NCBI RefSeq assembly: GCF_020144665.1
Contig: NZ_JAAHBQ010000017.1
Span: 1-64,000 of the forward strand
Length of the DNA: 64,000 nt
Direction of reading: 5' to 3'
Origin: Oscillatoria salina IIICB1
GTDB lineage: Bacteria; Cyanobacteriota; Cyanobacteriia; Cyanobacteriales; SIO1D9
Both the position numbers and the translations under genes were made by a program. The notes beneath the pieces were generated by a model. The model saw only the letters and a program-made list of their open reading frames with translations. It was not told the origin of the DNA and searched no databases. This document shows, one piece after another, positions 120 to 41,156 of the stretch (positions are counted from its first letter, which is position 1; each line of letters begins with the position of its first letter).

Positions 120-1286
120 CTATTGTGGTGTAGGTGTGATTAAAGCTTGGGCTTTTTCTAATAAATCTTGGGCATTATTAGCCCATTCTAAATTAGCTTG
201 GGCTGAGTAAAGATCTACTGCAAATTGTAAAACTCGCTGGGCTTCGCTGTAGCGTTTTTGATTGAAAAAAATTAAGCCAGCAGCATAGTAAGCGTTAGCA
301 TAATTACGGTTAGCTTCGGCGGCACTACGAAACGCGGCGAGGGCAGTGTCGAGAGAGTTTTCTTGGAATAAAATTGTTCCTAAATTATAGTGAGCTTCGG
401 CATAATCTGGTTTAATTTTAATTGCTTGTTGAAATAATTCTTTTGCTTGTTGAAATTGGTTTGCTTGGAGATAAGTAACGCCTAAATAATAATAAGGAGA
501 TGCAGAATCAGGATTTAGTTGAATAGCGCGACGTAAAGTGGCGATCGCGGTTTCAATTTCTCCTAACTCTAACAAAACTTTGCCCAAATTTTCGTGAGCA
601 AAGGCTAATTCGGGATCGAGGGAGATCGCGCGATCGAGATAATTTTTTGCTTGCGGGAGATTATTACCTTGATAAAGCACTTCGCCCAAATTAGCAAAAG
701 CTAAGGCAAAATTAGGATCGGCGAGGGTGCTACGATAAAAGGCTGTGGCTGCGGGCTGTAATTCTCCTTCTTGCTTGAGGGCTAATCCGAGGTTATAGTG
801 TGCCGAGGCGAGGTTAGGATCGAGTTGTGCGGCTAAACGAAAAGCGGCGATCGCTTCGCGGATTTTCCCTGATTCAACTAATTGTAATCCTTTGTTTACT
901 TGGTTAACTGCGGCGGTTTGTCGTTGTAAACTTTCACTGGATGTCTGGGCTAACTGGAAACTAATTGCTTCTGCGGATCTCGCTGGGGCTACGTTTCCCG
1001 TTATTAACATTAAACTCAAAATAATTAAGATTGGGGATTGGGGATTGGGGATTGGGGATTGGGGATTGGGGATTGGGGATTGGGGACTGTTAACTGATAA
1101 CTGCTCACTGTTAACAGCTTTGTTTGTGAATTTTTGCAAATTTTTCTTGACAAACTCGAAAGGTTTCCAACTTAACCCAGAAAATTGCTGAGGAATAAGG
1201 GAAATTAAGTGGTGGTGGGGAATCTGAGGTAAAGAATTTTGTTGATTTTTGAAACAAAATTGCGAACAAATGTTGCTATTGTTCAT
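120..1286 (-). CDS. TPR-repeat protein, probably secreted, with a heptamer repeat inside its N-terminal coding region
   Basis: 388 residues. From about residue 125 to 370 it is a run of TPR units with the usual pattern (for example LDPNLASAHYNLGLAL and IKPDYAEAHYNLGTIL), so it is a protein-protein interaction scaffold. The N-terminus is odd. About 65 residues without recognisable domains are followed by a period-seven stretch (NPQSPIP repeated) encoded by the GGGGATT array, and then by a hydrophobic segment (ILIILSLMLITGNVAPARSA) that resembles a signal peptide with an A-x-A cleavage site. A start inside that segment (TTG or ATG, near 1000-1010) would give a conventional exported TPR protein and would leave the repeat in the leader. 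ATG at 1286 is used here because it is the first in-frame start. The partner is unknown. TPR assignment is firm; the start is not. Confidence 0.8.
   Translation of the reverse strand: MNNSNICSQFCFKNQQNSLPQIPHHHLISLIPQQFSGLSWKPFEFVKKNLQKFTNKAVNSEQLSVNSPQSPIPNPQSPIPNPQSPILIILSLMLITGNVAPARSAEAISFQLAQTSSESLQRQTAAVNQVNKGLQLVESGKIREAIAAFRLAAQLDPNLASAHYNLGLALKQEGELQPAATAFYRSTLADPNFALAFANLGEVLYQGNNLPQAKNYLDRAISLDPELAFAHENLGKVLLELGEIETAIATLRRAIQLNPDSASPYYYLGVTYLQANQFQQAKELFQQAIKIKPDYAEAHYNLGTILFQENSLDTALAAFRSAAEANRNYANAYYAAGLIFFNQKRYSEAQRVLQFAVDLYSAQANLEWANNAQDLLEKAQALITPTPQ
1033..1085. repeat. Heptanucleotide tandem repeat (GGGGATT)x7, STRR type
   Basis: Seven exact copies of GGGGATT from 1033 to 1081 and a partial eighth. 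It is followed directly by TAACTG/CTGATAA-type sequence (1088-1115) that resembles the heptamer arrays at 40504-40587 and 60496-60518. Such short tandemly repeated repetitive heptamers are known from cyanobacterial genomes. Here the array lies within the open frame of the TPR gene. Confidence 0.9.
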
Positions 1287-1507
1287 TAACTTTATAACTA
1301 ATTTACGGTTAGCAAGCTTACTTAATAATTACTCTAGTTTCTCTTAAAAGAAATTGCAATTTTTGTATCAAGGAGAGAAAACGAGTTAGGCTTCATTAAT
1401 AGAGAGCTAGAGAAAGAACCTAATGAGAATCTTTGACTCTCACAATCCTAGCGGCACTAGGGGAAAGATATCGCTCCCCCAAAGTTAAACCGCAATTTAA
1501 CTTATGT

Positions 1508-1520: not shown

Positions 1521-3548
1521 ATGACCAGAAAAGTGGGAAACGGTACTCGCAATGTCGCCATTGTGGGACCGTACTCTAGTGGGAAAACCACCTTATTAGA
1601 AAGTATTTTGTTTGTGACAAAGGCGATCGCGCGTAAAGGTAGCATCAAAGAGGGTAACACAGTCAGCGACAGTGCGGCTGAAGCCCGCGATCGCACGATG
1701 AGTGTAGAAGTATCCATCGCTAGCACCGAAATTTCCGACCTGAATTTCACCTTTGTCGATTGTCCTGGTAGCATCGAATTTGCTCAAGAAACTCAAAACG
1801 CCCTAGTAGGTGTAGATGCAGCCGTAGTCGTTTGCGAACCAGTAATCGAGCGGGTTTTAACTCTCGCTCCTTTGTTCAAATTCCTCGACGACTGGGAAAT
1901 TCCGCACCTAGTTTTCATCAACAAAATGGATCGCTCCAATGACAGCTTTATGGATGTTCTCCACGCACTGAAAGCTGTTTCCACCCGTCCTTTATTACCG
2001 CAACAATACCCAATTCGTCAAAATCGAGAATTAGTCGGCTATATTGACTTAGTAACAGAAGCGGCTTTCCACTACCATGAAGGTAGTCCCGCCGATCCCG
2101 TACCTCTCCCCGAACACCTCAAAGACGAAGAAAAAGCAGCGCGGGAAGAAATGCTCGAAGTTTTGGCAGACTTTGACGACCATTTGCTCGAAGAATTGCT
2201 GGAAGAGATTGAACCGCCTCAAGAAGAAATTCTCCAAGATTTAAAGAAAGATTTAGGTGCAGATTTAATCGTTCCCGTATTCTTTGGTATTGCCGAACAA
2301 GATTACGGCGTGCGACCATTATTAGATGCTTTAGTGCGAGAAGCACCAGCCCCAGAAATTACCGCCGAAAGGATCGGACTAACTGGTCAAACTGACGCTC
2401 CCACTTTGGCGCAAGTGCTGAAAACCTACTATACTCCTCAAGGTGGCAAACTAAGTTTAGTCAGAGTTTGGCAAGGCGAGATTACCGACGGAATGGTTCT
2501 CAACGGCGTTCGTGCTGGTGGTTTGTATAGTTTGATGGGTCAGCAGCAAGAGCCTTTACAGAAAGCCGTAGCAGGTGAAATAATTGCGATCGGACGACTG
2601 GAAGGTATTCAAACCGGAGTAACTCTCAGTCCCAACCAAGCAGAAGAATTACCGAAAGCAGAAGCGATCGTACCAGTTTACGCTTTAGCGATCGCGCCCG
2701 AACGTCGCAAAGACGAAGTTAAACTTTCTTCGGCACTCACGAAACTTTTGGAAGAAGACCCCTCTTTGCGTTGGGAACAACACGGCGACACTCATGAAGT
2801 AATTCTTTGGGGACAAGGCGAAATTCATCTGCAAGTTTCCCTCGATCGCCTGCGCCGTAAATATAATTTACCCATGACGACGCATTTACCGCGAGTCCCT
2901 TACAAAGAAACAATTCGCCAAAGTGGAACTTCTCACGGTCGCTACAAACACCAAACAGGCGGTCATGGCGCATTCGGAGATGTTCATCTAGATATCAAAC
3001 CGCTTTCAAGAGGAGAAGGCTTTAGCTTCCACGAAACCATCGTCGGCGGTGTTGTCCCTAAACAATATATTCCCGGCGTAGAAACAGGCGTGCGTGAATA
3101 TCTCGCACAAGGTCCTTTAGGTTTCCCCGTCGTAGATGTAGATGTCACCCTGACTAACGGATCTTACCACTCAGTTGATAGTTCCGAGCAAGCATTTAAA
3201 CAAGCGGCTCGAATTGCGATGACTGAAGGAATGCCGAAATGCCAGCCAACTTTGCTCGAACCGATTTTAGCAATTAAAGTTTGTGCGCCTTCGGAGTTTA
3301 CCTCGAAAGCCCTACAGCTAATTAGCGGACGACGAGGACAAATTTTGGGTTACGAACCTCGCACCGACTGGCAAGGTTGGGACGAAGTTACAGCTTATCT
3401 ACCCCAAGCCGAGATGCACAACTTTATTATCGAGTTGCGATCGCTAACAATGGGCGTTGGCTTCTTTAATTGGGAATACAATCATCTCCAAGAAGTACCC
3501 GATAAAGTTGCCGAGTCTGTCTTAGCGATGATGAGTCACGCTGAATAA
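1521..3548 (+). CDS. EF-G-like translational GTPase (EF-G2 type)
   Basis: 675 residues, close to the length of EF-G and EF-G2 proteins. G1 is GPYSSGKT (residues 16-23), G4 is NKMD (134-137), and the C-terminal half has the EF-G domain II-V layout (for example GGHGAFGDVHLDIKP and a final EF-G C domain). It should be a ribosome-associated GTPase, but it is a paralogue rather than the main elongation factor. Switch I reads DRTMSVEVS instead of the usual RGITI-type sequence. G3 reads DCPGSIEF, so Ser84 sits where EF-G has the catalytic His of DTPGHVDF. The gene stands alone between a minus-strand gene and a strong terminator. Family assignment is firm; function in translocation, recycling or stress is not known. 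Confidence 0.85.
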   Translation: MTRKVGNGTRNVAIVGPYSSGKTTLLESILFVTKAIARKGSIKEGNTVSDSAAEARDRTMSVEVSIASTEISDLNFTFVDCPGSIEFAQETQNALVGVDAAVVVCEPVIERVLTLAPLFKFLDDWEIPHLVFINKMDRSNDSFMDVLHALKAVSTRPLLPQQYPIRQNRELVGYIDLVTEAAFHYHEGSPADPVPLPEHLKDEEKAAREEMLEVLADFDDHLLEELLEEIEPPQEEILQDLKKDLGADLIVPVFFGIAEQDYGVRPLLDALVREAPAPEITAERIGLTGQTDAPTLAQVLKTYYTPQGGKLSLVRVWQGEITDGMVLNGVRAGGLYSLMGQQQEPLQKAVAGEIIAIGRLEGIQTGVTLSPNQAEELPKAEAIVPVYALAIAPERRKDEVKLSSALTKLLEEDPSLRWEQHGDTHEVILWGQGEIHLQVSLDRLRRKYNLPMTTHLPRVPYKETIRQSGTSHGRYKHQTGGHGAFGDVHLDIKPLSRGEGFSFHETIVGGVVPKQYIPGVETGVREYLAQGPLGFPVVDVDVTLTNGSYHSVDSSEQAFKQAARIAMTEGMPKCQPTLLEPILAIKVCAPSEFTSKALQLISGRRGQILGYEPRTDWQGWDEVTAYLPQAEMHNFIIELRSLTMGVGFFNWEYNHLQEVPDKVAESVLAMMSHAE

Positions 3549-38635: not shown

Positions 38636-40348
38636 TTAGAGTTGCCCAGAAGCCAGTAAAGGAGCCGCTTGTAACAGTTTTTGGGTGTAGGGATTTTGGG
38701 GAGAGGTAAAAATTTGGTTAGTTTCTCCTATTTCTACTATTTTACCACTATTCATAACGGCGATGCGATCGCAGAAAAATCTTGCTACCCAGAGGTCATG
38801 TGTGATAAACAAATAAGTTAGCTTAAATTCTTCCTTGAGAGATTTCATTAAATCTAATACTTGAGTTTGGACGCTAGCATCGAGCATACTTACGGGTTCG
38901 TCACAGATAATTAATTTGGGTTGAGTAATTAAAGCACGGGCGATCGCTACGCGCTGTTGTTGTCCTCCGGATAAGTCGGCGGGGTAGCGGTTAGTGTAGT
39001 CTTCTACTGGGGTTAAACCTACTCGCTCTAACATTTGCCCTACTTTGATTTTAGCTTCGGCTGGCGTGGTTAAGTTATGAATATACAAGGGATCGACAAT
39101 ACTATCGCCAACTGTCATTAAAGGGTTAAGACAAGCGTGGGGATCTTGAAAAATCATTTGGATCTCGCGACGCATTTGCCGCATTTGGGAGGTTGAAAGT
39201 TTGGTTAAATCTGTTCCTAAAAATTCCACACTTCCAGACGTAGGGCGAACTAACTGTAAAATTGTCCGGGAAAGGGTACTTTTGCCGCAACCCGATTCAC
39301 CTACTAAACCGAAAATTTCCCCAGGATAAAGTTCAAAACTAACGTCGTCAACAGCTTTAATAAAATTAGTTTGTCGTGAAAATAATTGCTGAAGTAAACT
39401 GGTTTCTAAAGTGTAATACTGTTTGAGATTTTTAATTCTTAAAATAGGATTTGAATCTTGGCGATCGCTAGTGGGTAAGTTTTTAGCGAGTTCGGGATTT
39501 TCGCTGTTAGTAACTGGAATTTTTGCTTCTGCATCCTCAACTCGATCGACAGTTTGAATATGTAAAGCAGCTTCAAGTAAAGAGCGAGTATATTCATGTT
39601 GAGGTGCTTTCAGGAGGGAATTTATAGGTCCAGTTTCGACAATTTTGCCATTGTACATAACTGCAAGGCGATCGCAAAACTCTCCCACCATTGCCAAATC
39701 ATGAGAAATTAACAACAGTGCCAAAGAGCGAGAGTGACACAAGCGCGTGAGTTCTTGTAAAATCTCCGCAGCCACTGTAACATCAAGACTAGTAGTTGGT
39801 TCGTCAGCAACAATCAACTTGGGATCGAGAAGTAAAGCTAAAGCGATCGCCACACGCTGACGCATTCCTCCGCTAAACTCGTGCGGATATTGACCCCAAC
39901 GACTAGCAGGAATTTTCACCGCCGCCAAAGTAGACAGCGCCTTTTCCTTCGCTCGATCTCGCGATAACTTTGGTTGATGCGCCCTCAAAGTCTCGATACA
40001 ATGTTTGCCAATGGTCATTAAGGGATCGAGACGAGTCATCGGATCTTGAAACACCAACGCCACCGCTTCACCGCGAAACTTCCGTAACTGAGTTGGACTT
40101 AAATCAAAAACTGACTCACCCTGAAACGTAACTCGTCCCTCAATTTTCCCTTGGGGATCTAGCAAACGCATCGCCGCTCGTCCCAAAGTTGACTTTCCAC
40201 AGCCCGATTCTCCCACCAATCCCAGCTTTTCCCCTGGATTGAGAGTAAAAGAAACATCATCAACAGCCCAAGACTGTTGTTGAGCATTACGCTTGTTATT
40301 AGGATAAGCAACTCGTAAGTTTTCTACACGCAAAAGAGGATCGTTCAT
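38636..40348 (-). CDS. ABC transporter with two fused ATPase domains, oligopeptide/dipeptide (YejF/GsiA) type
   Basis: 570 residues. First ATPase: GESGCGKST, FSGGMRQRVAIAL, VADEPTTSLD. Second: GESGCGKST, LSGGQQQRVAIAR, CDEPVSMLD. Each is followed by an oligopeptide-type C-terminal extension (for example HEYTRSLLEAALH and NPYTQKLLQAAP). It energises uptake of peptides or similar solutes. No permease or binding-protein gene is nearby, so its partners lie elsewhere. It is transcribed alone. Confidence 0.9.
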   Translation of the reverse strand: MNDPLLRVENLRVAYPNNKRNAQQQSWAVDDVSFTLNPGEKLGLVGESGCGKSTLGRAAMRLLDPQGKIEGRVTFQGESVFDLSPTQLRKFRGEAVALVFQDPMTRLDPLMTIGKHCIETLRAHQPKLSRDRAKEKALSTLAAVKIPASRWGQYPHEFSGGMRQRVAIALALLLDPKLIVADEPTTSLDVTVAAEILQELTRLCHSRSLALLLISHDLAMVGEFCDRLAVMYNGKIVETGPINSLLKAPQHEYTRSLLEAALHIQTVDRVEDAEAKIPVTNSENPELAKNLPTSDRQDSNPILRIKNLKQYYTLETSLLQQLFSRQTNFIKAVDDVSFELYPGEIFGLVGESGCGKSTLSRTILQLVRPTSGSVEFLGTDLTKLSTSQMRQMRREIQMIFQDPHACLNPLMTVGDSIVDPLYIHNLTTPAEAKIKVGQMLERVGLTPVEDYTNRYPADLSGGQQQRVAIARALITQPKLIICDEPVSMLDASVQTQVLDLMKSLKEEFKLTYLFITHDLWVARFFCDRIAVMNSGKIVEIGETNQIFTSPQNPYTQKLLQAAPLLASGQL

Positions 40349-40406: not shown

Positions 40407-40503
40407 GAATAGTGGGTGGTTGGTAGTCGATATTGACAGTGGGGATAATTGGGGGAATTGGAAGGGATGGGGGACTGCTAACTGTTCGCTGGTAACTGTT
40501 CGC

Positions 40504-40587
40504 TGCTAACTGCTAACTGCTAACTGATAACTGATAACTGCTAACTGCTAACTGCTAACTGATAACTGATAACTGCTAACTGTTCAC
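40504..40587. repeat. Tandem heptamer array with a higher-order 35-base unit
   Basis: Heptamers TGCTAAC (C) and TGATAAC (D) follow each other in the order CCCDD CCCDD C, then a degenerate TGTTCAC. So the array is two exact 35-base units plus a partial one. The stop codon of the zinc-ribbon gene (TGA at 40586-40584) lies in the last, degenerate heptamer. Confidence 0.92.
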
Positions 40588-41156
40588 TGTTTATGGCTTT
40601 GGGCTACTTGTCGCATTAAATAAGCTAGGGCAAAATCTCCGTGAGGATGATCCTGTAAAATTTCCCCTAATTCAAAGACCTTTTGGGCTAATTCAGGTCC
40701 AAGTTTTTCCACCGTAGTTTGACGTTCCTTTTCCGCAGACTGTTGCTTTTGCAGTTGAAACTGCCATTCGGTGGAAAAAAGGCGATCGAGCGTCGTATGT
40801 ATTCCCAATTTGGTTAAGATATCCCACTCACCGCGATCGCACCAAATCCCTTGACACTGAGGACAGCGTTCCACGTAAAAAGGATTTCTAATACTGACTT
40901 TAGCGCGGGCTAAATAGCGACCGCATTCAGGACAAAGGGCTGCTTTCGCATCCAGAGGAGATTGAGTAAAGTTGACATCAAGGTTTTTCGAGAAAAAATC
41001 GGGGGGAACCACTGGTTGGTGTTGTTTTGCTTGCCAAGTTTCGTATTCGTCCCCGGAAAGCCAACTTCCTTGACATTGGGGACATTGTTTGGCGGCTAAA
41101 TTGGTTGAAAGAGTACCATCAACTAGCGCTACTTTCCTACATTTCGGACATTGCAC
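40584..41156 (-). CDS. TFIIB-type zinc-ribbon protein
   Basis: 190 residues. Two zinc-ribbon units: CPKC...CPQCQGSWLSGDE (residues 3-37) and CPEC...CPQCQGIWCDRGEWD (about 73-110), the usual form of the zf-TFIIB family. After that comes a helical C-terminal part with Gln- and Glu-rich text. Function is not known for this family; DNA or RNA contact is possible. The start is GTG at 41156, backed by AGGAGG eleven bases upstream. The last codons lie in the heptamer repeat, so the protein tail could vary with it. Confidence 0.8.
   Translation of the reverse strand: MQCPKCRKVALVDGTLSTNLAAKQCPQCQGSWLSGDEYETWQAKQHQPVVPPDFFSKNLDVNFTQSPLDAKAALCPECGRYLARAKVSIRNPFYVERCPQCQGIWCDRGEWDILTKLGIHTTLDRLFSTEWQFQLQKQQSAEKERQTTVEKLGPELAQKVFELGEILQDHPHGDFALAYLMRQVAQSHKQ

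Follow-up and report, generated by a model that had tools for sequence, protein, structure and literature searches.

The window, a stretch of 64,000 nucleotides from Oscillatoria salina IIICB1, begins with an open reading frame of 388 aa on the minus strand (120..1286), composed of a long N-terminal leader, a hydrophobic signal-peptide-like segment delimited by eye (ILIILSLMLITGNVAPARSA, 972..1031, minus strand) and a TPR domain. Its divergent neighbour is an elongation factor G-like GTPase (1521..3548, plus strand), and a divergent EF-G-like gene was found beside at least 82 of the 107 distinct ortholog loci of the TPR gene, the window's own included. Between both genes, a conserved DNA block of about 110 bp extends over the start region (1247..1356, minus strand). 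Seven perfect GGGGATT units are located on the plus strand at 1033..1081 (AATCCCC when read along the TPR gene), and on the minus strand they spell NPQSPIP within the 388-aa frame, right before the signal-like segment and the TPR domain, as had been described in an earlier note made from the letters alone. The array was retrieved both by pattern matching for exact copies, with 6 overlapping two-copy matches compared to 0 in 100 dinucleotide shuffles, and by Tandem Repeats Finder (1029-1086, period 7, 8.3 copies, 100% matches). The extent of 1033-1085 proposed in that note was correct for the array but not for its end, since position 1085 includes part of the next unit, GGGGACT. With seven GGGGATT units and one GGGGACT, the array belongs to the GGGGA(T/C)T class, for which at least two such units are needed. 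It is directly adjoined by xACTGxx heptamers, absent from the earlier note, which are degenerate tandem units of the TAACTGA type and make of the whole a longer composite at about 1029..1117 (ends approximate), formed of the GGGGATT array and GGGGACT/xACTGxx heptamers and encoding VNSEQLSVNSPQSPIPNPQSPIPNPQSP on the minus strand.

The earlier note had also suspected that slippage in the array turns an exported TPR protein on or off, and the frame arithmetic behind this suspicion is exact. When copy numbers from 0 to 14 were simulated, 1, 4, 7, 10 and 13 copies kept the frame while all others ended it after 70-124 aa, so that a gain or loss of one unit shifts the frame and truncates the product, the TPR part being reached from the ATG at 1286, and the signal-like segment kept in one frame with the upstream start, only if the copy number equals 1 mod 3. 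The length of the array, the third longest among the 53 genome arrays examined (those in 46 genome stretches and in the window), also speaks for phase variation. The C-rich strand of the array contains no stop codon in any of the three frames and gives the same seven-residue cycle in each; taken with the present length being in frame, this suggests that ribosomes probably read through the repeat.

The GGGGATT repeat is dispersed over both strands of the genome. The three-copy pattern gave 53 forward and 53 reverse matches in the genome of the strain (0 and 0 in the control), and at least 53 arrays of three or more copies are distributed over 47 of its stretches; of the 53 arrays examined, 41 lie clear of any ORF of at least 100 aa. 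When positions 700-1300 of the window were compared with the same genome by BLAST, the composite (1029-1115) was found nearly whole at 23 other places with 79-92% identity, a count to be read with the ease with which tandem repeats align. The number of units on both sides of the composite differs from copy to copy, and what recurs is therefore an arrangement and not a unit of fixed length. A pair of xACTGxx heptamers within 60 nt accompanies 13 of the 53 arrays on the 3' side of the G-rich strand and 5 on its 5' side, compared to 27 of 3252 in the control. Regarding orientation (ORFs of at least 150 aa, within 120 nt), 12 arrays upstream of ORFs give a C-rich mRNA versus 2 a G-rich one, and after stop codons 18 are G-rich versus 5 C-rich. 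By eye, no obvious ribosome-binding site was seen in the C-rich leaders at L157 (GrpE by Pfam), L162, L156, L154 and L166, where arrays stop 1-21 nt before the start codon.

The seven-base repeat itself occurs in many cyanobacteria, and short tandem heptamers scattered through the genome, as observed here, are known as STRR sequences in heterocystous cyanobacteria. For Nostoc sp. PCC 7120, Rehm and colleagues described GGGGA(T/C)T repeats that are quadruplex-forming, present chromosome-wide and 68% intergenic, with CD data published for the (GGGGATT)4 quadruplex and with phase variation thought unlikely (PMC4692102). The unit is identical to that of the window and is likewise dispersed on both strands with some intragenic copies, and the strand preference near gene ends published for Nostoc, whereby the G-rich strand is antisense before genes and sense after stops, holds in the present genome (PMC4692102). 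Two differences were noted: the term "amino acid" does not occur in that paper's main text while here the in-frame readings are listed for each gene, and the present array is joined to AACTG-type heptamers (PMC4692102). This second half of the composite is of the same heptamer type as the TAACTGA repeats of Beggiatoaceae and cyanobacteria, whose reverse copies likewise allow an in-frame reading, as LSVISYQ peptides there and as SEQLSV here; the TAACTGA repeats are described as lying mostly just before start codons and at the ends of proteins, whereas here they also occur inside or between domains, as in a CopA-type ATPase and in PKS (PMC4679880). Among the literature matches listed, no paper dealing with this TPR gene was found, nor any on signal peptides that contain heptamer arrays.

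Six further genes of the genome carry the repeat within their reading frame, flanked left and right by gene sequence, as judged in a screen that itself requires an open frame; these genes encode a CopA-type ATPase, LpxC, a TPR protein, two PKS modules and a GT9/TPR protein. Left out of this count were L272 (where the array is probably part of the leader ahead of a glycosyltransferase domain), L282 (a frame of 139 aa), L166 (array before the start codon) and L167 and L179 (short frames). The CopA-type ATPase (L154) carries the repeat in frame just before MVGDGINDAPAL, as an insert between LQ and AMVGDGINDAPAL that counts 40 residues versus 1 in the best PDB relative. The insert is absent from all ten aligned relatives, the alignment pattern having caught 11 of 12 rows, its own included, and the best matches of 11/11 relatives start no earlier than query residues 58-64, where the insert ends or has already ended. 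Since two further homologs of this ATPase are found in the genome, loss of the insert-bearing copy need not be costly. The two PKS modules (L270 and L273) carry the repeat in frame at equivalent positions, where it separates the ketoacyl synthase domain from the acyltransferase domain, and in the TPR protein it comes after the hydrophobic N-terminus. LpxC, for which a single copy was found in the genome, is the weakest of these cases, because loop length varies among relatives and the pattern caught just 4 of 11 rows. Dispersed repeats read in frame in unrelated proteins are known from Rickettsia as palindromic elements; the repeat here is a tandem heptamer composite.

Genes split out of frame by an array were also sought, as complementary halves by Pfam in close same-strand flanking ORF pairs (9 + 9), and none was found in the 18 pairs; in 11 of them Pfam left one or both ORFs unmatched, and with matches on both ORFs in only 7 informative pairs this null result counts as weak evidence. 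A TPR gene apparently broken by an array at L287 was rejected, as the array sits between genes. Phase variation of the exported TPR protein, unsupported by these results, was set aside as main reading and is considered unlikely, since the repeat belongs to a dispersed class of at least 53 arrays, since it is found in frame in unrelated enzymes (LpxC, CopA-type ATPase, PKS), and since no variation was observed in the one genome available; in the study of the Nostoc repeats, it was judged unlikely for the class as a whole (PMC4692102). In the heptamers of Haemophilus hmw1A, what matters is likewise the number of copies, close to the 5' end of a gene for an exported protein; there, however, it was seen to vary, downstream of the promoter, while the present array is probably coding and known from one genome (PMC8262952). 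Switching at the present locus would be rare at most.

Whether the array is coding depends on where translation starts. The most likely start is the ATG at 1284..1286 (minus strand), which is aligned with the ATG of the conserved block and after which codon usage is not gene-like; a TTG at 1137..1139 (minus strand), placed by eye at the position of the ATG in relative L004, is an alternative that also lies upstream of the array. Both are in frame through the repeat. A profile of the block, built from eight relatives and searched over the 82 ortholog regions flanked by the EF-G-like gene, gave 27 matches, with 42.6 bits and E 1.5e-12 for the window. In 16 of the 20 best loci, window included (15 of 19 relatives), an uninterrupted frame leads from the block ATG into the TPR part. 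The 20 loci do not count as independent cases, as they are the best matches of 82 regions, eight of them built the profile and several come from one genus. In the remaining four (L131, L126, L116 and L005) the block ATG fails to open the TPR frame. A start upstream of the array, on which the earlier note had built, is thus favoured by comparison. When single open frames were tested by dinucleotide shuffling, P ranged from 0.0015 to 0.37, with 0.17 for the window frame. The relatives' N-terminal peptide profile weakly supports the window frame: built from ten relatives, it gave the window ORF as best match at full length (E 0.018), and once cut to its 28-residue core a shuffled sequence came best, with E 0.92 for the window ORF.

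Conservation of the first codons was rejected as proof of translation, the three codon positions differing about equally (133, 122 and 139 differences at positions 1, 2 and 3 over 12 codons of the window and eight relatives) and the block being conserved also where its ATG opens no gene. Equally variable at the three codon positions, the block at 1247-1356 is possibly a promoter, an operator or a leader.

The other possibility, already named as the alternative in the earlier note, is a start downstream of the array. The reading that translation starts at the TTG at 1019 or the ATG at 1010 and that the array lies in an untranslated leader where, if active, it would tune expression as a template-strand G-quadruplex or a C-rich 5' leader, agrees with the coding signal, which becomes gene-like only past about 1016. 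The 55 codons ahead of the composite score -0.207 bits per codon, like intergenic DNA, a value as low in 1 of 80 gene N-termini and as high in 55% of intergenic pieces, and translation there is consequently not certain. Other arrays of the genome end 1-28 nt ahead of start codons, for example before the GrpE gene, and the strand preference reported for the class points in the same direction (PMC4692102). Codon usage alone was however rejected as disproof of translation, because low scores are also obtained for relatives whose frame is opened by the block ATG (with the codon table of the window's genome). A protein begun at either downstream start would lose part of its hydrophobic segment and lack a charged n-region; the frame through the array can be entered from two start codons further upstream, and the block ATG opens the frame in most relatives that have the block. 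The untranslated leader is therefore regarded as doubtful, and translation of the array, which would proceed from the ATG at 1286, as quite likely. It is, on the other hand, highly improbable that the N-terminal frame arose by chance and that, since the insertion, the protein has been decaying or is exported poorly: the last lysine does lie about 30 residues from the hydrophobic core, repeat counted, but the ORF is full-length, its TPR domain is intact and the codon signal of the TPR part is strong.

Heptamers were also looked for in the orthologs of the TPR gene. Perfect arrays of at least three copies, placed within the open frame and ahead of the TPR part, occur in 5 of the 107 ortholog loci, namely the window (GGGGATT), L013 (CTGTCAC), L126 (CTGCCTT), L222 and L223; in the four other loci (of 106) the heptamers differ from GGGGATT and are N-terminal and in frame. 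The remaining ortholog arrays lie upstream of the ORF start or straddle it. No perfect heptamer array of three or more copies was found in 80,187 nt of TPR body, compared to 22,152 nt of N-terminal sequence searched, and the N-terminal stretch thus looks permissive for several kinds of heptamers. At L126, the signal-like segment owes its hydrophobic core (AFCLLPSAFCLL) to five CTGCCTT heptamers.

Taken together, the comparisons make it fairly probable that the array belongs to a dispersed heptamer composite which a TPR gene tolerates in frame close to its signal peptide, and is not a switch. It would be the G-quadruplex-type half of such a composite, of the cyanobacterial STRR class, which may have reached the gene by insertion and come to lie in the N-terminal leader, past the start codon but ahead of the signal peptide's hydrophobic core. 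Its G-rich strand is the template strand, as commonly seen in copies close to 5' ends, and reading through it would yield a linker rich in Ser, Pro, Gln and Asn, presumably neutral in function, that the TPR gene would tolerate as other genes of the genome may do. A suspected on/off switch is in this way recast as an instance of an already known repeat class, here probably read as protein. A wider proposal, in which the composite can settle in genes of the lineage and supply them with translated linkers irrespective of frame (in a signal-peptide leader, a P-type ATPase, PKS and LpxC) and slippage at such sites gives rare, reversible frame switches genome-wide, is quite unlikely. If the inserts in the CopA-type ATPase, LpxC and PKS are confirmed, the genome would be convenient for studying the spread of heptamers, linkers and the rate of slippage in coding sequence.

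Two further observations concern heptamers elsewhere. GGGGATT arrays of at least three exact copies are present in 63 of the 80 loci L031-L110, retrieved with a peptide query that selects for the GGGGATT repeat, and records bearing the names Xanthomonas, Lysobacter, Anaerolineae, Pirellulales and Verrucomicrobia are among these 63. In the window itself, Tandem Repeats Finder detected a second heptamer array, of the ACTGCTA type with 15.6 units (40474-40589), which overlaps the 3' end of an ORF at 40584-41156 (minus strand) and precedes another at 38636-40348 (minus strand) that is ABC transporter-like by eye.
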